This document shows, one piece after another, positions 37,021-46,883 of a DNA stretch of 64,000 bases. Under the pieces are notes generated by a model. It worked only from the letters and a program-made list of their open reading frames with translations, did not search any database and had not been told where the DNA came from. The position numbers were made by a program, and so were the translations under genes. The stretch comes from Sphingobium sp. TCM1 (GTDB lineage: Bacteria > Pseudomonadota > Alphaproteobacteria > Sphingomonadales > Sphingomonadaceae). Numbering within the stretch: position 1 is the stretch's first letter; the number at the start of each line of letters is the position of its first letter. The DNA lies in assembly GCF_001650725.1 (NCBI RefSeq), contig NZ_LXVX01000039.1:1-64000 (forward strand), in the 5' to 3' direction.

Positions 37021-37803
37021 CTAAGCCGGCAACGCCACGCTCGCTGCCACGTCCGTCGGGCAGTGCGTGCCCGCCACCGCCTCCCCAATCAGCAGCAGGG
37101 TCGGGTCTTCGTCACTGATCGTCGCCACCAGGAAGGCGAGCGCAGAGAGCTTCCCCCGGATCAGCCGCTCGCTGGGCAGCGAGACATTGACCGCCACCAT
37201 CACCGGCGTTTCGGGATCGCGCCCGGCGGCGATCAGCGACCGGCTGATCTCGCCCGCCGCCGCCCGGCCCATATAGATGCCGAGCGTCCCGCCCGGCCGC
37301 GCCAGCGCTGCCCAGTCCAGCTTGAGCGGCTCCCCGGCATTGAGATGTGCCGTCACCAAGGTCAACCCGCGCGCCACGCCGCGCAGGGTGAGCGAGGCAT
37401 GGCCGCTCGCTGCCGCCGCGCTGGCCGTGGTGATGCCGGGGCAGATGCGGAAGCGCACGCCGTCGCGCGCCAGATGCTCCATCTCCTCCGCCGAGCGGCC
37501 GAACACCGATGGGTCTCCGCCCTTCAACCGCACGACGCGCTTGCCCGCCTTCGCCGCCGCCAGCAGCAGGTCGTTGATGCTGTCCTGCGCCTTGGAGTGG
37601 CGGCCCGAACGCTTGCCGACGCTCACCTGTTCGACACCCGTCGGGATCAGGTCCAGCACGCCCGGCCCCACCAGCGCGTCGTAGAATATGATGTCGGCGG
37701 CGGCGATCAGCTTTTCCGCCTTGCGGGTCAGCAGGTCCGGATCGCCCGGTCCCGCGCCCACCAGCCAGACTTCACCCGGCGCGATAAGGTCATTCGGCTG
37801 CAT
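37021..37803 (-). CDS. cobA: uroporphyrinogen-III C-methyltransferase (SUMT)
   Basis: 260 residues. GEVWLVGAGPGDPDLLTRKA at the N-terminus, YDALVGPGVLDLIP, RLKGGDPSVFGR and GTLGIYMG are the signatures. It methylates uroporphyrinogen III to precorrin-2, the entry to sirohaem, which NirB needs. The start overlaps the nasA end by 14 bases, so it is the last gene of the nitrate operon. Start 37803. Confidence 0.95.
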   Translation of the reverse strand: MQPNDLIAPGEVWLVGAGPGDPDLLTRKAEKLIAAADIIFYDALVGPGVLDLIPTGVEQVSVGKRSGRHSKAQDSINDLLLAAAKAGKRVVRLKGGDPSVFGRSAEEMEHLARDGVRFRICPGITTASAAAASGHASLTLRGVARGLTLVTAHLNAGEPLKLDWAALARPGGTLGIYMGRAAAGEISRSLIAAGRDPETPVMVAVNVSLPSERLIRGKLSALAFLVATISDEDPTLLLIGEAVAGTHCPTDVAASVALPA

Positions 37804-40408
37804 GGAGCGTCTCCTGCGTGGATTGGGCTTGAGCGAGGATATTGGCGATGGCGGGGCGGCACGATCCGCAATTGGTCCCGGCGCCCAGCGCCTTGCCCAC
37901 GGCGGGCACGTCGACCAGTTGCTGGTCGCGAATCGCGGCAACGATCTGGTTCAACCCGATGTCGAAGCAGACGCAGATGGTCGCGCCCTTGTCCGGCTGG
38001 CTGCCCGGCCCGCGCGCGGCGAGCACCGAGCCGCCCACCCCTTCGACCTCCAACTGGCGGATCAGCCAGTCGCGCGAGGGCAGCAGGCCGGTGCGCGTCA
38101 CGAACAGCACGCCGCGCAGCCTGCCCTCGCTGATGATCGCGACGCGGCGGGTGCCACGGGTCATGTCCATGGCCTCGACCCGGTCGCCCTTGGGCAGGAA
38201 CGCCTCCAGCCGCGCAGGATCGCCATTGCCCGCGATCTCGTAGAGCGCGCCGCCCGGCACGCTGATCTTCGTCGCCCAGAGGCACGGCAGCCGCACCGGC
38301 TCCGCCCCGCGCAGGATGAGGAAGCCCTTCCACTCGGTCGCGACCTTCTCGACGCTGGCCGGGGTCGACTTGAAACCCGGCTGGCCCGAATGAGGATCGA
38401 CCAACGGGCGCGGCAACAGGCCGGTGCGGCCGCCGCTGCTGGTCTGGTCGGTCCAGTGGATCGGGGTGAAGATCTCGCCCGGCCGCTGGCCGTCGCTCAC
38501 GCGCACGCGGAAGATGCTGTTGCCCTGCGCGGTCTGGACCCGCGCCAGATCGCGGTCGACGATGCCCAGTTCCTCGGCGTCGCGCGGGTGGATTTCCACC
38601 AGCGGCTCCTCGCGGTGGCGCGCCAGCTTGGGGGCCAGGCCGGTGCGGCTCATCGTGTGCCACTGGTCGCGATAGCGCCCGGTGTTGAGCGTCATCGGCC
38701 ACTGTTTCAGCGGCTCCTGAATGTCCATCTGCTTCGTCAGCACCAGCCGCGCCTTGCCGTCGGGCGTCGTGAAGCGACCATCGGCAAAGACCCTGCCCCC
38801 GCCCCAGCGGAACGGCTCCATCGCGTCATAGGCATCATTGCCGATCGTCGCCTGTGCCCGCAGGTTGAGCAGCCGCGCACCGTCATTCTGATAGGCGGTC
38901 AGGCGCGCATGTTCGCGCCAGATGTCGGCGGGCCGGTCATAGGCGAAGGCGTTGCGCCAGCCCATGCGGCGCGCGACCTGCGTGACGATCCACCAGTCGG
39001 GCTTGGCCTCGCCGGGCAACGCCAAAAAGGGGCGCTGGCGGCTGACGGTGCGGTCCGAATTGGTGACGGTGCCGTCCTTCTCGCCCCACCCGGCGGCGGG
39101 CAGGCGGACATCGGCATGGGTCGAGCTGTCGGTATCGGCCATGATGTCCGACACGACGAGGAAGGGAACCGCCTCCAGCGCCTCGCGGACCCGGCCAGCG
39201 TCAGGCAGCGAAACGGCGGGGTTGGTCGCCATGATCCACAGCGCCTTGATCCGCCCTTCGTTGATCGCGCGGAACAGGTCGACCGCCTTCAGCCCCGGCT
39301 TGGTCGCCATCGTCGGCGCGGCCCAGAAGCGGCCGACGCGCGCGACATTGTCGGGCGCGAAGTCCATATGCGCCGCCAGCGTCGAGGCAAGGCCGCCGAC
39401 CTCGCGCCCGCCCATGGCATTGGGCTGGCCGGTGATCGAGAAGGGCGCCGCGCCCGGCTTGCCGATGCGGCCGGTGGCCAGATGGAGGTTGATGATCGCG
39501 TTGACCTGATCGGTCCCGCGGATCGACTGGTTGATGCCCTGGCTGAACAGGGTGACGGTGCGCGGCGTGGCGGCGAACAGCTTGTAGAATTGTTCCAGCA
39601 GCGCGGGCGCGATGTCGCAGGTTTTCGCCGTAGTCCACAGATCGTGGCCGTCGCGGATATGCTCCCAGAAGCCTTCGGGGGCGTTCACATGATCGGCCAT
39701 ATAGGCCGGATCGGTGATGCCCTGCGCCGCTACCCATGCGAGCAGCCCGTTCATCAGCGCGACGTCGGTGCCGGGCTTCACGGCCAGATGCAGGTCCGCG
39801 CCCTCGCAGGTTTCGGTGCGGCGCGGGTCGATGACGACCAGCTTCGTGCCGCGCGCGGCACGGGCGGCCTGGATGCGCTGATAGACGATCGGGTGGCACC
39901 AGGCGGTGTTGGACCCGACCAGGACGATCAGGTCCGCTTCTTCCAGATCGTCATAGCTGGCGGGCACCACATCCTCGCCGAATGCCCGGTTATGCCCGGC
40001 GACCGCGCTCGACATGCACAGGCGGCTATTGGTGTCGATGTTCGCCGAACCGATAAAGCCCTTCATCAGCTTGTTGGCGACATAATAATCCTCGGTCATC
40101 AACTGGCCGGAGACATAGAAGGCCACGCTGTCCGGGCCGTACCGTTCGACGGTTTCGCGAAATTTCTTCGCGACCAGGTCCAGCGCCTTGTCCCAGCTGG
40201 CGCGCTTGTTGCCGATCATGGGATGCAGCAGCCGACCGGTCAGCCCCACCGTTTCGCCCAGATGCGTGCCCTTGGAGCAGAGGCGCCCGCCATTGGCCGG
40301 GTGCGCCTCGTCGCCCTTGATGATGACCGATCGCGGCCCGGTCGGCGTGGCCGAAATGCCGCAGCCGACGCCGCAATAGGCGCAGGTGGTGCGGATGGCC
40401 TCTGTCAT
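37790..40408 (-). CDS. nasA: assimilatory nitrate reductase catalytic subunit
   Basis: 872 residues. N-terminal [4Fe-4S] ligands CAYCGVGCGI (about 9-18), three bis-MGD-binding domains, and a C-terminal BFD-like [2Fe-2S] domain (about 800-862: ICVCFDIGLNQI ... NCGSCRPAI). It reduces nitrate to nitrite in the cytosol, drawing electrons probably via the C-terminal cluster. There is no selenocysteine and no separate NADH subunit in the window. Expressed with nirBD upstream. Confidence 0.95.
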   Translation of the reverse strand: MTEAIRTTCAYCGVGCGISATPTGPRSVIIKGDEAHPANGGRLCSKGTHLGETVGLTGRLLHPMIGNKRASWDKALDLVAKKFRETVERYGPDSVAFYVSGQLMTEDYYVANKLMKGFIGSANIDTNSRLCMSSAVAGHNRAFGEDVVPASYDDLEEADLIVLVGSNTAWCHPIVYQRIQAARAARGTKLVVIDPRRTETCEGADLHLAVKPGTDVALMNGLLAWVAAQGITDPAYMADHVNAPEGFWEHIRDGHDLWTTAKTCDIAPALLEQFYKLFAATPRTVTLFSQGINQSIRGTDQVNAIINLHLATGRIGKPGAAPFSITGQPNAMGGREVGGLASTLAAHMDFAPDNVARVGRFWAAPTMATKPGLKAVDLFRAINEGRIKALWIMATNPAVSLPDAGRVREALEAVPFLVVSDIMADTDSSTHADVRLPAAGWGEKDGTVTNSDRTVSRQRPFLALPGEAKPDWWIVTQVARRMGWRNAFAYDRPADIWREHARLTAYQNDGARLLNLRAQATIGNDAYDAMEPFRWGGGRVFADGRFTTPDGKARLVLTKQMDIQEPLKQWPMTLNTGRYRDQWHTMSRTGLAPKLARHREEPLVEIHPRDAEELGIVDRDLARVQTAQGNSIFRVRVSDGQRPGEIFTPIHWTDQTSSGGRTGLLPRPLVDPHSGQPGFKSTPASVEKVATEWKGFLILRGAEPVRLPCLWATKISVPGGALYEIAGNGDPARLEAFLPKGDRVEAMDMTRGTRRVAIISEGRLRGVLFVTRTGLLPSRDWLIRQLEVEGVGGSVLAARGPGSQPDKGATICVCFDIGLNQIVAAIRDQQLVDVPAVGKALGAGTNCGSCRPAIANILAQAQSTQETLHAAE

Positions 40409-40520: not shown

Positions 40521-40856
40521 TCATGCCGCCGCCTTCAGCGCGGCGGGGCGAGCGATGAGGATGCGGTCGCCATCCTGCCTGACCGCGATGGTCGGGGTGC
40601 AGCCCTCGTCCGCGCCCTGCGCCTCGCCGGTCTTGAGCGCGATGTTCCAGTTGTGCAGCGGGCAGGCGACGCTGTGGCCGTGGACGATGCCCTGGCTCAG
40701 CGGCCCCTTCTTGTGCGGGCATTCGTTGACCAGCGCGAAGATCTGGTCGTCGCCGGTGCGGAAAACGGCGATTTCCTTCTGCCCTTCGATCTGCACCGTG
40801 CGGGCGCCGCGCTGGGGAATGTCGGCCAGCGTTCCGATGTCGATCCAGTCGGTCAT
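40521..40856 (-). CDS. nirD: nitrite reductase (NADH) small subunit, Rieske-type
   Basis: 111 residues. CPHKKGPLSQGIVHG and VACPLHNWNI give both Cys-x-His pairs of a Rieske [2Fe-2S] cluster. It partners NirB. 5 bases after the nirB stop. The start at 40856 (MTDWIDIGTLADI) is preferred; the longer frame overlaps nirB. Confidence 0.92.
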   Translation of the reverse strand: MTDWIDIGTLADIPQRGARTVQIEGQKEIAVFRTGDDQIFALVNECPHKKGPLSQGIVHGHSVACPLHNWNIALKTGEAQGADEGCTPTIAVRQDGDRILIARPAALKAAA

Positions 40857-40861
40857 GTCGT

Positions 40862-43369
40862 TCACTCCGCTGCGATGGAGATGGGCTGGAGATGCTGATG
40901 CAGCTCGGCATGTTGGCCAGCGGCGCGCTCGGCCCAGGGATCGTCCTGGCTGAAGCTTTGCGAATAGAGGAAGCGGGCGCGCAGTGCTTCCCGGCCCGCC
41001 TCGTCCTCGACGATCCGGCTCTTGATATAGTCGACGCCGACCCGCTCGATCCAGGGCGCGGTGCGCTCCAGATAGCGCGCTTCCTCGCGATAGAGCTGGA
41101 TGAAGGCGGCGCAATAATCGAGCGCCTCCTGCTCGGTCGCGACCTTGCAGAGCAGGTCGGTGGCGCGGACATGGATGCCGCCATTGCCCCCGACATGCAG
41201 TTCATAGCCCGAATCGACGCATACCACGCCGAAATCCTTGATCGTCGCCTCCGCACAGTTGCGGGGGCAGCCCGATGCCGCGATCTTGAACTTGTGGGGC
41301 ATCCACGACCCCCAGGTCATCCGCTCGATCTTGACGCCAAGGCCGGTCGAATCCTGCGTGCCGAAGCGGCACCATTCGGACCCGACGCAGGTCTTCACCG
41401 TGCGCAGCGACTTGCCATAGGCATGGCCCGACACCATGCCCGCGGCATTGAGGTCGGCCCAGACGGCGGGCAGGTCTTCCTTTTTGATGCCGAAAATGTC
41501 GAGGCGCTGGCCGCCGGTGACTTTCACCATCGGGGCGTCATATTTCTCGACCACGTCCGCGATCGCGCGCAGCTCGCGCGGGTTGGTGAGGCCACCCCAC
41601 ATGCGCGGGACGACCGAGTAGGTGCCGTCCTTCTGGATATTGGCGTGCATCCGCTCATTGACGAAGCGGCTCTGCTGGTCATCCTGATATTCGCCCGGCA
41701 GCGCGCAGAGCAGATAATAGTTGAGCGCAGGGCGGCAGGAGGAACAGCCGTCCGGGGTCGACCAGTGCAGCAACTGCATCACCTCCGGGATCGAGCGCAT
41801 ATTCTGCGCCACGATCTCGCGACGGACATCGTCATGGGTGAAGCTGGTGCATTTGCACATCGTCTTGGGGCCGGACTTCACCTCGTCGCCCAGCACCACG
41901 CTAAGCAGATTCTCGACCAGACCGGTGCAGCTGCCGCAGCTGGCCGACGCCTTGCACCCGGCGCGAACCGCGTCGAGGGAGCAATTGCCCGCTTCGATGC
42001 AGGCGACGACCTGGCCCTTGCTGACGCCGTTGCAGCCGCAGATCTCGGCATCGTCCGAGAGCGCCGCAACGGCCGCCTTAGGGTCCAGCGCGCCCCCTCC
42101 CGAGGCGAAGGCCTGGCCGAAGATCAACAGGTCGCGAATGTCGCTGACATCCTCTTCGCGCTTCAGCAGGTCGAAATACCAGCCGCCGTCCGCCGTGTCG
42201 CCATAGAGCACCGCGCCGACGATCCGGTCTTCCTTGACGATGACCCGCTTGTAGACGCCGCGCGACGCATCGCGCAGGACGATATCCTCGCAACCTTCGC
42301 CACCGGAGAAGTCACCGGCGGAGAAAACGTCCAGCCCGGCGACCTTGAGCTTGGTCGACGTGACCGAACCCTTGTATCCGCTGTGCTGGTCGGTCAGGCC
42401 GTCGGCCAGGCTGCGGCACATGTCCCACAGCGGCGCGACGAGGCCGTAGACATTGCCGTCATGCTCGACACACTCGCCGACCGCCAGCACGTCGGGGTCG
42501 CTCGTGACCATGTGATCGTCGACCTTGATGCCGCGATTGACCTCCAGCCCCGCTTCGCGGGCCAGCGCCGTCGACGGGCGGATGCCCACCGCCATGACGA
42601 CCAGGCTCGCCGGGATTTCGCGGCCGTCCTTCAGACGGACGCCCTCGACCTTGCCGTCGCCATAGATGGCTTCGGTGTTGGCGCCGGTCAGGATGGTCTG
42701 GCCGCGTGCCTCCAGCGCGCTCTTGAGCAGCCAGCCGGCGGCCTCGTCGAGCTGCCGCTCCATCAGCGTGTCCATCAGGTGGATGACCGTCACCTTCATG
42801 CCGCGCAGGGTCAGGCCATGCGCGGCTTCCAGGCCCAGAAGGCCGCCGCCGATCACGACCGCGTCCCCGCCCGCATCGGCGGCGGCAAGCATGGTGTCGA
42901 CATCCTTCATGTCGCGGAAGCTGATGACGCCGGGCAGATCCTTGCCCGGAACCGGGATGATGAAGGGATCGGAGCCGGTGGCGATCAGCAGCTTGTCATA
43001 GCCCATGGTGCGACCCGAGTGGCTCGTGACGGTCTTGGCGGTGCGGTCGATCGCCGTCACCGGATCACCCGCGATCAGCTCTATGCCATTGTCGGCATAC
43101 CATTCGCGCGTGTTGATGATGATGTCGTCGAAGCTCTTTTCGCCGGCCAGCACCGGCGAGAGCATGATGCGGTTATAGTTCACATAAGGCTCTGCGCCGA
43201 AGATGGTGACGCGGTAGCGTCCCGCATCCCGCGCCAGCAGTTCCTCGACCGCCCGGCAACCGGCCATGCCGTTGCCCACGACCACCAAATGTTCACGGAC
43301 ATCCTCGAACGGCACCAGGATGTCGTCCTGCGCCTCCGTCCGATCCTCGTCCTTGACCTGAAACTCCAT
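40862..43369 (-). CDS. nirB: nitrite reductase (NADH) large subunit
   Basis: 835 residues. FAD/NAD(P)H domain (VVVGNGMAGCRAVEELLA and VVIGGGLLGLEAAHGL), a BFD [2Fe-2S] domain (CGCNGVSKGQVV), then the sirohaem/[4Fe-4S] reductase half with SGCPRNCAEATIKD (about 680-694). It reduces nitrite to ammonium with NADH. The gene is preceded by a terminator-containing leader (43399-43523), so it should be induced by nitrate/nitrite through NasT. Confidence 0.96.
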   Translation of the reverse strand: MEFQVKDEDRTEAQDDILVPFEDVREHLVVVGNGMAGCRAVEELLARDAGRYRVTIFGAEPYVNYNRIMLSPVLAGEKSFDDIIINTREWYADNGIELIAGDPVTAIDRTAKTVTSHSGRTMGYDKLLIATGSDPFIIPVPGKDLPGVISFRDMKDVDTMLAAADAGGDAVVIGGGLLGLEAAHGLTLRGMKVTVIHLMDTLMERQLDEAAGWLLKSALEARGQTILTGANTEAIYGDGKVEGVRLKDGREIPASLVVMAVGIRPSTALAREAGLEVNRGIKVDDHMVTSDPDVLAVGECVEHDGNVYGLVAPLWDMCRSLADGLTDQHSGYKGSVTSTKLKVAGLDVFSAGDFSGGEGCEDIVLRDASRGVYKRVIVKEDRIVGAVLYGDTADGGWYFDLLKREEDVSDIRDLLIFGQAFASGGGALDPKAAVAALSDDAEICGCNGVSKGQVVACIEAGNCSLDAVRAGCKASASCGSCTGLVENLLSVVLGDEVKSGPKTMCKCTSFTHDDVRREIVAQNMRSIPEVMQLLHWSTPDGCSSCRPALNYYLLCALPGEYQDDQQSRFVNERMHANIQKDGTYSVVPRMWGGLTNPRELRAIADVVEKYDAPMVKVTGGQRLDIFGIKKEDLPAVWADLNAAGMVSGHAYGKSLRTVKTCVGSEWCRFGTQDSTGLGVKIERMTWGSWMPHKFKIAASGCPRNCAEATIKDFGVVCVDSGYELHVGGNGGIHVRATDLLCKVATEQEALDYCAAFIQLYREEARYLERTAPWIERVGVDYIKSRIVEDEAGREALRARFLYSQSFSQDDPWAERAAGQHAELHQHLQPISIAAE

Positions 43370-43383
43370 CCCTGCGTCTCCGG

Positions 43384-43452
43384 AAAAGAAAAAACAAAAA
43401 GGCCGCCATCCGGACCCCCGGTTCGAAAACCGAAAGTCTGGATGGCGGCCTT
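43384..43452 (-). terminator. leader terminator of nirB (antitermination target)
   Basis: Long stem AAGGCCGCCATCC / GGATGGCGGCCTT (43399-43452) with a secondary CGGTT/AACCG hairpin in its loop. On the minus strand it is followed by a T-rich run (TTTTTGTTTTTTCTTTT, 43384-43400). It stands 30 bases before the nirB ATG. Confidence 0.88.
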
Positions 43453-43470
43453 GCCATCATTTGCGCCTTG

Positions 43471-43523
43471 CTGATCCGTCCCTGGACCAGTGCGGCTATG
43501 GTAGGAAGGACAACCTCGTCCTT
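43471..43523 (-). promoter_or_regulatory. two-hairpin ANTAR (NasT) RNA motif before nirB
   Basis: In the transcript P1 = AAGGAC-GAGGUU-GUCCUU (43506-43523, 6-bp stem, hexaloop) and, 15 bases on, P2 = CUGGUCC-AGGGAC-GGAUCAG (43471-43490, 7 pairs with one wobble, hexaloop with A1 and G4). Two hexaloop hairpins just before a terminator are the binding motif of ANTAR antiterminators such as NasR/NasT. nasT is in this window. Confidence 0.85.
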
Positions 43524-43630
43524 TGCACTGCAACATAAAGCGAATCGTCGGCCAGCTCAAGCGATTCCACGCCGCGCTGGCGAAAAAGCTGGGGCGGCGG
43601 TCCGTAACGGCCGCCGCCCTCCTCTCCAAC

Positions 43631-44875
43631 TCAGATGCGCGCGCCGGTATTCCAGGTCGCACGCCACTTGGTCTTGACCAGCGCGACGCCCGCAAAGGCC
43701 AGGATCGCAAGGCCGGCAAAGATCAGGAAGCCCGGCGCGAAGCTGCCCGTGAACTGCTTGGCGATGCCCAGCGAACTGGCCAGGTAGAAGCCGCCAATGC
43801 CGCCCGCCATGCCGACGAGGCCGGTCATGATGCCGATTTCCGCCTGGAAGCGCTGCGGCACGAGCTGGAAGACCGAGCCATTGCCGGTGCCCAACGCCAG
43901 CATCGCCATCACGAACAGGCCGAGCGCACCGACCAGCGTGGTCGAATAGGCGACACCCGCCAGCGCCAGCGCGGCGACGACATAGACCATCATCAGCGCC
44001 TTGACGCCACCGATCCGGTCGGCCAGCGCGCCGCCCATCGGCCGCACCAGCGACCCGGCGAACACGCATCCTGCGGTGCAATATCCCGCGACCACCGGGG
44101 TCAGGCCGAACTGGTCGGTGAAGTAGATCGGCAGGCTGGCGGCGAGGCCCACGAAACCGCCGAAGGTCACCGCGTAGAAGGCCATCAGCCACCAGGCATC
44201 GGCCTGCTTCAGGGGCGCGAAATAATCGACCAGCTTCTTGGGCGCGGGCGCGTTGGGCGCGTCCTTCGCCATCACCATATAGGCGATGAACACGATCGTC
44301 AGCGGGATGCAGGCCAGGCCCAGCACCGAATTCCAGCCGAACAGCTTGGCCAGCCCCGGCGCGAACAGCGAGGCAAGCACCGTGCCCGAATTGCCCATGC
44401 CGGCCAGACCCATCGCCTTGCCCTGATGTTCGGCCGGATACCAGCGGCTGGCGAGCGGCAGCGCGATCGCGAAGCTCGCCCCGGCAAAGCCCAGGATCAC
44501 GCCCAGCGCCAGCGTGCCGGCGAAGCTGTCGATCCCCGCCATCCAGGCGGTGAACAGCCCGGCGATCACGATCACCTGGCTGATGGCGCCCGACATTTTC
44601 GGGCCGATGCGGTCGACCAGCAGGCCGTTGACCACGCGCAGCAGCGCGCCGGCCAGCGTCGGCGTCGCGACCATCAGCCCCTTTTCGGCGGGGGTCAGGG
44701 CCAGCGTCTTGGAAATCATCGGCGCCAGCGGACCCAGCAGCACCCACACCATGAAGGCGAGGTCGAAATAGAGAAAGGCGGCGATCAGCGTCGGCGTGTG
44801 GCCGGCCTTCCAGAAGCTCGTCGCGGGCGCGGGCGCCCGGCCCTCTTCCTCGCGATCCCAATAAGCGGTTGCCAT
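43631..44875 (-). CDS. MFS nitrate/nitrite transporter (NarK/NasA type)
   Basis: 414 residues, 12 predicted helices. YFDLAFMVWVLLGPLAPMI and 'PTLAGALLRVVNGLLVDRIG' match the N-terminal half of the nitrate/nitrite porter family, and GNSGTVLASLFAPGLA is the nitrate signature region. It brings nitrate (or exchanges nitrite) across the inner membrane. Start 44875 chosen by hydrophobicity and leader position. It precedes nirB by 260 bases of leader. Confidence 0.92.
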   Translation of the reverse strand: MATAYWDREEEGRAPAPATSFWKAGHTPTLIAAFLYFDLAFMVWVLLGPLAPMISKTLALTPAEKGLMVATPTLAGALLRVVNGLLVDRIGPKMSGAISQVIVIAGLFTAWMAGIDSFAGTLALGVILGFAGASFAIALPLASRWYPAEHQGKAMGLAGMGNSGTVLASLFAPGLAKLFGWNSVLGLACIPLTIVFIAYMVMAKDAPNAPAPKKLVDYFAPLKQADAWWLMAFYAVTFGGFVGLAASLPIYFTDQFGLTPVVAGYCTAGCVFAGSLVRPMGGALADRIGGVKALMMVYVVAALALAGVAYSTTLVGALGLFVMAMLALGTGNGSVFQLVPQRFQAEIGIMTGLVGMAGGIGGFYLASSLGIAKQFTGSFAPGFLIFAGLAILAFAGVALVKTKWRATWNTGARI

Positions 44876-44906
44876 GCTACGTCCCCAATTAAAGCAAATG
44901 GACATG

Positions 44907-44958
44907 AAAAAAGCCGCAGGCCGGACATCACCATGGGGTGAGCCCGGTCAGCGGCTTT
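44907..44958 (-). terminator. leader terminator of the nitrate transporter gene
   Basis: On the minus strand AAAGCCGC...CCGG...TCACC pairs with GGTGA...CCGG...GCGGCTTT, followed by TTTTTT (44907-44912). It ends 31 bases before the transporter ATG, exactly like the nirB leader. Confidence 0.85.
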
Positions 44959-44980
44959 GCTGTAAAATCTGGTGAGGAAA

Positions 44981-45032
44981 CGCGATCCCCACCTTGGGAC
45001 GGCGCATCCGATTTACGTGCGCTTCATCGCGC
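44981..45032 (-). promoter_or_regulatory. two-hairpin ANTAR (NasT) RNA motif before the transporter gene
   Basis: In the transcript P1 = GCGC-GAUGAA-GCGC (45019-45032, hexaloop, G4) and, 14 bases on, P2 with core UCCC-AAGGUG-GGGA (44986-44999, hexaloop, A1 and G4), extended by a G-U pair and three more pairs to 44981-45004. The arrangement P1, 14-15 bases, P2, terminator is the same as before nirB. Confidence 0.78.
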
Positions 45033-45090
45033 GACTCCGATAGTATCTCGCGATTCGCGCCATGTTGCAAGGCACAAAAATCAAGGCCGC

Positions 45091-46305
45091 TCAGCGCGGC
45101 TGCGCGAACCCCGCCAGGAAATCGTCGATCTTTTCCGGATCGAACACCCGCCCGTCGAAAAACCGGTCCGGCCCCAGGGTCAGTTCGCCCCGGCGCGATC
45201 CCACCGCCAAGGGCAGGTCGACCGCCCCTTCCAGCTTCATGCTGGCACCGGGCATCGGCACGTCGCTGTCCGCCAGCGCGCGGCGGAAAATGTCCGGACG
45301 GAACACCGCCCCGGCCTTCGCCGCGGTCGCGGCGTCATGCGCCACCATGTTCCAGCGCACCAGCTGCGAATAGATCCACAGCGCCTGGCTGCGCCAGGGA
45401 AAGGGCGTCGCTTCGCGGCTGAACAGCATGAAATCAGGATTGGCGATCGCCGGCTCGCCCGCCCGCGCGACGATCCGGCCGCCCAGCGCGCGCAGGATCA
45501 GCTCGGCGGGCTGGTCGACATAGCGCGCCGCCGCCATCAGCTCGGCCAGCGCCGCATGGTTCGCCGGATCGTCGCACCAGGCCGCCGCCCGCGCCAGCGC
45601 GCGCAGCAACCGGTCGACAGTATCGGGATTTTCCTCCAGCCAGGGCTCGCGGAAGGCCAGCACCTTCTCCACGCCGCGCCGCCAGATGCGCTCGCCGATC
45701 GCCGCCGTCTCCGCCAGCCCCGCCTCCACCGCCGCGCTGCCCCATGGCTCGCCCGCGATGAAGCCGTCAATCTCGCCCGCGCGCATCGCCTCTACCGTCA
45801 GCGACGGCGGCAGCACGCGCAGCACCACATCCTTGTCCGGGTCGACCCCCGCGCTCGCCAACCAGTAGCGCAGCATGATCGCATGACTGGAAAAGCGATG
45901 GACGACGCCGATCACCGGCTTGCGCCGCCACAGGCCGATCGCGGCGGCGAAATCATGCGCGGTGCCCAGCGGGTCGGCCAGCCGCGCGGCGACGTCCGGC
46001 TCCAGCGCCTTGGCGAAATCGGTCGCCATCACCAGCATGTTGCCGTTGACGTTCAGCTTGTAGGGCGCGGCCAGCGGCGCGGCCTGCTGGCTGAGGCCCA
46101 GCGTCACGGCGACCGCCAGCGGCGCCAGCATGTGCGCGGCATGGACCTGCCCGAACACCAGCCGGTCGCGCAGCGTCGCCCAGCTGGTCGTCCGCACCAG
46201 CTGGAGCGCCAGCCCCTCCGCCTCGGCAAAGCCCTGCTCGCGCGCTGCGATCAGGACAGCGGCGTCGGTCAGCGGCAGGAAGGCGATCTTCAGTTCGGTC
46301 GTCAT
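45091..46305 (-). CDS. nasS: nitrate/nitrite sensor protein NasS (cytosolic NrtA-like)
   Basis: 404 residues without a signal peptide, resembling ABC nitrate-binding proteins: LKIAFLPLTDAAVLIAAREQ, QVHAAHMLAPLAVAVTLG, and VHRFSSHAIMLRYWLA. As known for NasS, it binds NasT and releases it when nitrate or nitrite is present. It overlaps nasT by 4 bases. Confidence 0.9.
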   Translation of the reverse strand: MTTELKIAFLPLTDAAVLIAAREQGFAEAEGLALQLVRTTSWATLRDRLVFGQVHAAHMLAPLAVAVTLGLSQQAAPLAAPYKLNVNGNMLVMATDFAKALEPDVAARLADPLGTAHDFAAAIGLWRRKPVIGVVHRFSSHAIMLRYWLASAGVDPDKDVVLRVLPPSLTVEAMRAGEIDGFIAGEPWGSAAVEAGLAETAAIGERIWRRGVEKVLAFREPWLEENPDTVDRLLRALARAAAWCDDPANHAALAELMAAARYVDQPAELILRALGGRIVARAGEPAIANPDFMLFSREATPFPWRSQALWIYSQLVRWNMVAHDAATAAKAGAVFRPDIFRRALADSDVPMPGASMKLEGAVDLPLAVGSRRGELTLGPDRFFDGRVFDPEKIDDFLAGFAQPR

Positions 46306-46883
46306 AGCCCTCCTCCCAGCAGGTCGCTGGCGGTGATCAGCGCCTGCGCCACGTCCACGATCTTCTTGCCCTGGTTCATCGCGCTCGACCGCAGCAGCGC
46401 ATAGGCATCCTGTTCGGAAAGGCCGCGCTGGTTCATCAGGATCGACTTGGCGCGGTCGATGATCTTGCGGTCGCTGAGCGCGGTGCGGGCCTCGTCCAGC
46501 TCGGTCTGGATCTTGGCGAAGGCGTTGAAGCGCCGCACCGCCAGTTCCAGCACCGGCTTCACCCGCTCCTTGCGCAGGCCGTCGACGACATAGGCAGACA
46601 CGCCCGCGTCGATCGCCGCGCCGATCATGCTGTCGTCCGACTGATCGACGAACATGGCGATCGGCCGGGCGAGCGCGCGGCTGACGGTCAGCATCTCCTC
46701 CAGCGTGTCGCGGCTGGGGCTGCCCAGGTCCATCAGCACCACGTCGGGCGCCATGCGCTCCAGCCGCGCGACGAAGGCGCCACGCGGCGGGACGATGTGG
46801 ATATCGTCATAGCCCGCCTCGCGCAGCCCCTCCTCCAGGACGGTCGCGCGAAGCCCGCTGTCGTCGATGATGACGATTCGCAT
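46302..46883 (-). CDS. nasT: ANTAR-domain antiterminator NasT
   Basis: 193 residues. A receiver-like domain (MRIVIIDDSGLRATVLEEGL, with DLGSP in place of a usual phosphorylation site region) and a C-terminal ANTAR domain (about 130-190: DRKIIDRAKSILMNQRGLSEQDAY). It binds two-hairpin leaders and prevents termination upstream of nitrate genes. It is first in the cluster, ahead of nasS. Confidence 0.93.
   Translation of the reverse strand: MRIVIIDDSGLRATVLEEGLREAGYDDIHIVPPRGAFVARLERMAPDVVLMDLGSPSRDTLEEMLTVSRALARPIAMFVDQSDDSMIGAAIDAGVSAYVVDGLRKERVKPVLELAVRRFNAFAKIQTELDEARTALSDRKIIDRAKSILMNQRGLSEQDAYALLRSSAMNQGKKIVDVAQALITASDLLGGGL

Follow-up and report, generated by a model that had tools for sequence, protein, structure and literature searches.

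The gap upstream of nirB in Sphingobium sp. TCM1 holds several hairpins and a terminator, raising the question of whether they form a leader through which NasT controls transcription into nirB, and which hairpin plays which part. The window analysed here is the whole stretch of 64,000 nucleotides (64 kb). The reading favoured here, at a probability of about 85%, is that the nirB leader belongs to the ANTAR RNA class and that NasT controls transcription antitermination there; its three hexaloop hairpins are designated P0, P1 and P2. In the available text of PMC3369931 and PMC8164766, this class is defined by two stem-loops with A1 and G4; comparisons with published systems throughout draw on excerpts of the papers cited.

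Gene cluster and the two leaders

The genes surrounding the leader are as follows.

46302..46883, minus strand: nasT, receiver plus ANTAR domain, 193 aa (domain matches)
45091..46305, minus strand: nasS-like gene for an NMT1-like binding protein (NasS name from family and place)
43631..44875, minus strand: narK-like MFS transporter (named from domains and position; start 44875 is our choice)
40862..43369, minus strand: nirB, nitrite reductase large subunit (TIGR02374 above cut-off)
40521..40865, minus strand: nirD, nitrite reductase small subunit (TIGR02378 above cut-off)
37790..40408, minus strand: nasA-like molybdopterin nitrate reductase (named from domains and position)

The minus-strand order is nasT, nasS, narK, nirB, nirD and the nasA-like gene, with nasT overlapping the adjoining NMT1-like nasS gene. 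An earlier sequence-only reading had placed nasT and nasS in the same cluster as the nirB leader, and gene order and domain matches bear this out. The narK-like protein scores 280.6 bits against TIGR00886, under the cut-off of 311.7, and no model reached its NCBIfam cut-off for the nasA-like protein. The best named NirB match is from Sphingobium cyanobacteriorum, at 90% over the first 156 residues, own-genome records possibly being omitted.

NasT is the one ANTAR protein found in the genome, with receiver-like and ANTAR Pfam models both above cut-off. Across 199 family genomes, nirB is found in 70 and nasT in 70, together in 69 (lists compared by eye), the two exceptions being G127 (weak nirB match) and G070 (stop within the nasT match). 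Comparison by eye with EutV (6wsh) shows 8 of the 11 reported RNA-contact residues identical in NasT, 2 conservatively changed and 1 lost, Arg175 of EutV corresponding to Gly172. The tyrosine that partners G4 is conserved (Tyr161 in NasT, Tyr164 in EutV), and the numbering offset between the two proteins agrees with the coiled-coil leucines given in the excerpted PMC8934654.

The elements of the nirB leader are listed in the order of transcription.

43506..43523, minus strand: P0, the extra hexaloop hairpin, AAGGAC[GAGGTT]GTCCTT (the first hairpin of the sequence-only reading)
43471..43490, minus strand: P1, hexaloop hairpin, CTGGTCC[AGGGAC]GGATCAG (called P2 in that reading)
43441..43458, minus strand: P2, antitermination hexaloop, GATGGC[AAGGCC]GCCATC, overlapping the 5' arm of the terminator
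43399..43452, minus strand: intrinsic terminator stem-loop, its long helix 99.1% paired across 59 leaders
43384..43400, minus strand: T-rich tract of the terminator (direct reading of the sequence)

From the start of the T tract to the nirB ATG at 43369 is 31 bases. Two hexaloop hairpins followed by a terminator with a T tract, described in the sequence-only reading as lying some 30 bases ahead of nirB, are indeed present (43523-43506, 43490-43471 and 43452 onward). The leader is real and its assignment to the ANTAR type is right, with the hairpin roles in that reading being wrong: the pair taken as P1 and P2 is P0 and P1. The AGGGAC hairpin is P1, and the true P2, GATGGC[AAGGCC]GCCATC, had been missed within the 5' arm of the terminator. 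Since neither P0 nor P1 overlaps the terminator, the pair originally proposed is unable itself to exclude termination. The terminator stem starts at 43452, within P2, and because P2 shares bases of the 5' arm, P2 and the terminator are mutually exclusive. Folding of the RNA at growing lengths reproduces this order of events, with P0, P1 and P2 persisting until the terminator 3' arm emerges, whereupon P2 is displaced. The loop rule of A1 and G4 is satisfied by P1 (AGGGAC) and P2 (AAGGCC); P0 (GAGGTT) has G at position 1.

Published E. faecalis eut leaders have a hairpin linker of about 5-12 nt, with induction lost at 14 (PMC3369931, in the text available). The P1-P2 linker of the nirB leader, at 12 nt, lies inside this range; between P0 and P1 there are 15 nt, beyond that limit. 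P1 is also enclosed by a short outer helix, GCC/GGC (43465-43496, minus strand), with 2 of its 3 pairs retained in at least 57 of 59 leaders; given this retention, P1 may stand on a stacked stem, with about 6 nt then left between it and P2.

A second leader, absent from the sequence-only reading, occupies the gap between nasS and narK (45042-44905, minus strand), again with three hexaloops and a terminator.

45019..45032, minus strand: P0 of the narK leader, GCGC[GATGAA]GCGC (hexaloop scan of the gap)
44985..45000, minus strand: P1 of the narK leader, GTCCC[AAGGTG]GGGAT (hexaloop scan of the gap)
44949..44962, minus strand: P2 of the narK leader, CAGC[AAAGCC]GCTG, within its terminator
44905..44958, minus strand: terminator of the narK leader with its T tract, ending ahead of narK

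Hexaloops with a stem of at least 5, C-G closing, a purine at position 1 and G4 number 42 on the plus strand and 41 on the minus strand of the window; only two pairs of them lie 20-45 nt apart, both belonging to the nirB leader, a grouping beyond chance. Covariance model R1 matches the nirB leader in its own genome at E 1.5e-32, a value high by construction because this leader is its own training row, and finds no other full-length place there up to E 1. The narK leader was not recovered by R1 in that genome, the hexaloop scan of the nasS-narK gap being what recovered it. Model R2 matches the narK leader at E 1.2e-28, likewise a training row, with no other full-length place in the genome up to E 0.1. 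The leaders found in the genome are thus two, ahead of narK and ahead of nirB-nirD-nasA. A simple promoter/terminator scan gave a single terminator-like site where shuffles predict 0.8, and by itself is therefore no evidence. Rfam returned 0 matches in the window at gathering score, with the matches of a permissive search staying far below it.

Under strict filters, R1 matches at E 0.01 or better occur in 23 of the 199 family genomes, some preceding nasA-like genes (G156, G123) and an nrtA-like gene (G046), named from reading translations. Matches in G074 and G117:C151 were rejected as apparent chance terminators, and opposite-strand matches at the same terminators as palindrome echoes. A leader of the same class was also observed in G031 ahead of a small PilJ/methyl-accepting-like gene (L183, 2400-3077, plus strand; name by reading), a possible nitrate-linked signalling target.

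Conservation and covariation among relatives

Searches with the NirB start gave matches in 70 of the 199 family genomes, and the best 80 of 212 confirmed named loci were taken as well. The P2-in-terminator motif lies directly before nirB in 42 of the 70 family stretches (19 in clade I, 23 in clade II) and in 65 of these best 80 named loci. Twelve of the 28 family stretches lacking the leader were inspected, and there another gene ends just upstream of nirB (by reading); one upstream stretch, L062, is only 186 bases long. Alignment A4 comprises 59 leaders, all distinct and with the window's spacing, assembled from the 65 named loci minus 8 of a longer Ib type and 6 duplicates, leaving 51, plus 8 family loci.

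All 59 leaders retain the closing C-G pair and G4 in each of P0, P1 and P2. Loop position 1 is A, G or U in 46, 12 and 1 leaders for P0 (the U in L005), in 50, 9 and 0 for P1, and in 59, 0 and 0 for P2, of which only P0 and P1 are independent tests, P2 having been selected by a motif that holds its A1 and G4. Taking the best hexaloop of each zone free of such rules, G4 is present in 58 of 59 for P0, the single exception being a competing hairpin in L108, and in all 57 found for P1, where 2 of the 59 zones are without a stem of 4. Control hexaloops from upstream, mostly coding, DNA carry G4 in 74 of 270 cases and a purine at position 1 together with G4 in 12%. A1 makes no specific protein contact in EutV, according to the available text of PMC8934654, and the G1 variants observed here fit this. 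Compensation of G1 in P0 by G1 in P1 was considered and dropped, the narK leader of L144 having both.

Pairing across P0, P1 and P2 reaches 94.8% of cells against 89.2% in shuffles, none of 500 being as high, and does not exceed 58.9% once the partner has been shifted 1 to 3 columns. Double-change cells in the three hairpins number 98 against 30 in shuffles; as the sequences are related, the shuffle figures are not probabilities. Double changes affect 5 of 6 pairs in P0 and 6 of 7 in P1, so the hairpins covary in relatives and an objection from missing covariation, foreseen in the sequence-only reading, fails. The weak spots are the outermost pairs, failing in 22 of 59 leaders for P0 and 27 of 59 for P1. 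P2 is near-invariant, as expected for bases that serve two helices. Its loop position 3 is the sole free loop base (G in 30, A in 29), and this base and its partner in the terminator 3' arm both differ from the commonest pair in 28 of 59 leaders.

The narK leader was found in 64 of 81 loci, 60 of them distinct, the remainder comprising 9 loci without the narK motif and 8 without the leader. Its alignment holds 49 of the 60, with 11 divergent ones excluded, 5 of these lacking a canonical P0. None of the 49 departs from the closing C-G pair or from G4 in any of the three loops, and double changes occur in 3 of 5 pairs of P0 and 3 of 5 of P1. Most P0 stems are palindromic. Of the 60 distinct leaders, 54 can form a canonical P0, with that register strictly the longest in only 18; 50 have a canonical P1 whose stem is at least 4.

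Across clades, P0 is distributed unevenly. Clade Ib, which has a longer P1-P2 stretch, carries a canonical P0 in 14 of 17 distinct leaders by reading, the exceptions being L023, L044 and L046. No canonical P0 with a stem of at least 5 was found upstream of P1 in any of the 23 clade II leaders; one row of that list, L031, was anchored on the wrong motif, its own sequence holding a dual hexaloop. NasT identity to the window's protein is 53-61% in clade II genomes and 74-100% in clade I. The loops of P1 and P2 stand 46-55 nt apart in clade II and 52-76 nt apart in clade Ib, far above the published linker limit; further base pairs near or 3' of P1 may bring them effectively closer. The P1-P2 linker of the window's narK leader, at 22 nt, is also above the published range; like the spacing in clades Ib and II, this departs from the published geometry unless additional pairing reduces the distance.

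At class level, the comparison took in 20 of the 26 NasT loci found outside the family, in other alphaproteobacterial families. Eight of the 20 have P2 in the terminator with an upstream hexaloop; three hexaloops are present in 3 of these leaders (L226, L234, L236) and two in 4, with 1 ambiguous. In shuffled copies of these 20 loci, P2-in-terminator arose once, and never with an upstream hexaloop. A further nirB locus, L191, may also have the triple-hexaloop form.

Putative promoters and GANTC sites

A putative promoter precedes each leader.

43532..43560, minus strand: putative promoter of the nirB leader, TTGAGC-17-TATGTT, with GATTC in the spacer (from conservation only)
45041-45075 zone, minus strand: putative promoter of the narK leader, TTGCAA-17-GATACT, with GANTC in the spacer

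A scan of the window for the sigma-70 consensus found no promoter, and a sigma-54-like GG-N10-GC spacing, readable in the window, was rejected, none being seen in relatives (by eye, uncounted). GANTC occurs in the promoter zone of 55 of 59 Ia nirB leaders versus 12 of 354 background windows of the same width. The corresponding values are 14 of 17 versus 3 of 68 in clade Ib, 14 of 23 versus 7 of 161 in clade II, and 41 of 60 versus 21 of 168 for narK leaders. A second GAATC is frequently seen just upstream of the nirB -35.

The genome has a GcrA match and one match to the RAMA domain, which CcrM carries; among control genomes, RAMA matches occur in Caulobacter only. The strong enrichment of GANTC, the CcrM site, between the putative -35 and -10 of both leaders suggests GcrA/CcrM control, and GcrA may drive both leader promoters. 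GcrA is described in the accessible part of PMC7987155 as working at methylated promoters, with the motif YGAKTCG. A TGCTGCACTGCAAA-like motif was also noted, lying at the putative start site in clade I (window 43537-43524, minus strand) and upstream of the putative promoter in clade II (loci such as L037, L041 and L052); it is perhaps a repressor site.

Proposed mechanism, alternatives and meaning

Several published systems inform the proposed mechanism. In Paracoccus, nitrate dissociates NasS-NasT and NasT binds a leader (PMC3795266), the nasA leader there having two hairpins (PMC5424462). Bradyrhizobium uses NasT antitermination, with narK going up, not down, without NasT (PMC6759348). In the EutV model the protein moves from a recruitment hairpin to an antitermination one, and the structure study argues that the dimer visits a single hexaloop at a time (PMC8934654). 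By analogy, we infer that NasS-NasT release as in Paracoccus is combined here with a hairpin hand-over as in EutV, with P0 as a second recruiter. Without nitrate, NasT would be held by NasS, and polymerase would make P0, P1 and P2, the emerging terminator 3' arm ousting P2 and transcription stopping ahead of nirB. With nitrate or nitrite, NasT would be freed and dock on the nascent hexaloops, G4 being placed on Tyr161. It would then move from the upstream recruitment hairpins to P2 and hold P2 folded, so that the terminator is blocked and nirB-nirD-nasA is transcribed. P0, at the predicted 5' end of the RNA, would act as a second recruitment site for early NasT loading.

That P0 is a NasT site is probable. 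The principal alternative, which we regard as unlikely though well worth weighing, accepts P1 and P2 as a working dual-hexaloop ANTAR element and gives P0, at the 5' end, a part in mRNA stability or in initiation and none in NasT binding. It draws on the start of P0 within a few bases of the putative start site, on the want of a canonical P0 throughout the 23 clade II leaders, and on the U at P0 loop position 6 in 55 of 59 leaders, which may pair with position 1 and so reduce the loop to four bases, the form that RNAfold and RNAalifold predict. A hairpin serving stability, however, would not require a constant G4 and closing C-G, yet both are invariant in nirB and aligned narK leaders alike (59 of 59 and 49 of 49) while the remaining P0 stem and loop vary. 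The near-constant P0-P1 spacing of 33-37 nt among nirB leaders and the triple hexaloops in 3 of 8 leaders from other families also argue for a NasT site.

The regular spacing of the hexaloops P0 and P1 could instead make these two the ANTAR element, with the terminator opposed in some other way and P2 a by-product of terminator sequence. This is very improbable: P2 of the narK leader also has C-G closing, A1 and G4, the one free base of the P2 loop tracks the terminator, and P2 in a terminator with an upstream hexaloop recurs at NasT loci of other families (8 of 20) and not in their shuffled copies. Antitermination leaders described in the available text of PMC3369931 and PMC8934654 likewise place P2 in the terminator stem. 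The least probable reading takes the element as a constitutive narK terminator, or as an attenuator unrelated to NasT, with the hairpins arising by chance. A terminator would be unremarkable directly 3' of narK, where the leader lies, but covariation and invariant loop bases, the nirB start close behind the leader in relatives, and the similar leaders that other family members have ahead of nasA-like and nrtA-like genes speak against it.

The NasT-controlled three-hexaloop leader resembles the eut leaders and EutV (PMC3369931, PMC8934654) in its G4 hexaloops, the second within the terminator stem, its cognate ANTAR protein and the tyrosine that partners G4. It differs from them in having three hexaloops, in tolerating G1 in P0 and P1, in some longer linkers, and in a NasS-NasT partnership in place of the EutV phosphorelay. 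The Paracoccus denitrificans nasA leader (PMC3795266, PMC5424462) is likewise a NasT-type leader between nasS and structural genes, responding to nitrate there, with two hairpins (HI, HII) compared with three hexaloops and two leaders per cluster here. Klebsiella NasR/nasF, as reported via PMC3369931, shares antitermination by an ANTAR protein, nitrate-dependent there, and hexaloops with A1 and G4, but relies on the one-component sensor NasR and a dual hexaloop. The EutX/Rli55 RNA (PMC8934654) adds one further single G4 hexaloop to its dual hexaloop, comparable to the third hexaloop here; EutX, however, acts in trans and sequesters EutV, whereas the third hexaloop here sits within a conserved cis leader. 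Within the listings and partial texts covered, the literature search found no description of a conserved three-hexaloop leader, which is no proof of absence.

The family is ordinary, an ANTAR leader, and the three hexaloops are what is new. Their presence in both leaders of one pathway, with two in relatives, constitutes a natural experiment for the relay model, in which removing or swapping P0 would probe the role of the recruitment hairpin. Judged from the sequences, the upstream loops appear to tolerate G1 while G4 and the C-G closing pair stay, a pattern that would sharpen searches for ANTAR targets. A fuller picture, in which P0 and P1 recruit NasT in series for transfer to P2 and CcrM-site promoters are possibly driven by GcrA, is tentative and on balance doubtful. 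If true, a three-station relay would make the nitrate response sharper or quicker than two hexaloops allow, and nitrate assimilation would be gated twice: nitrate would act through RNA, and DNA methylation tied to replication would act at the promoter.
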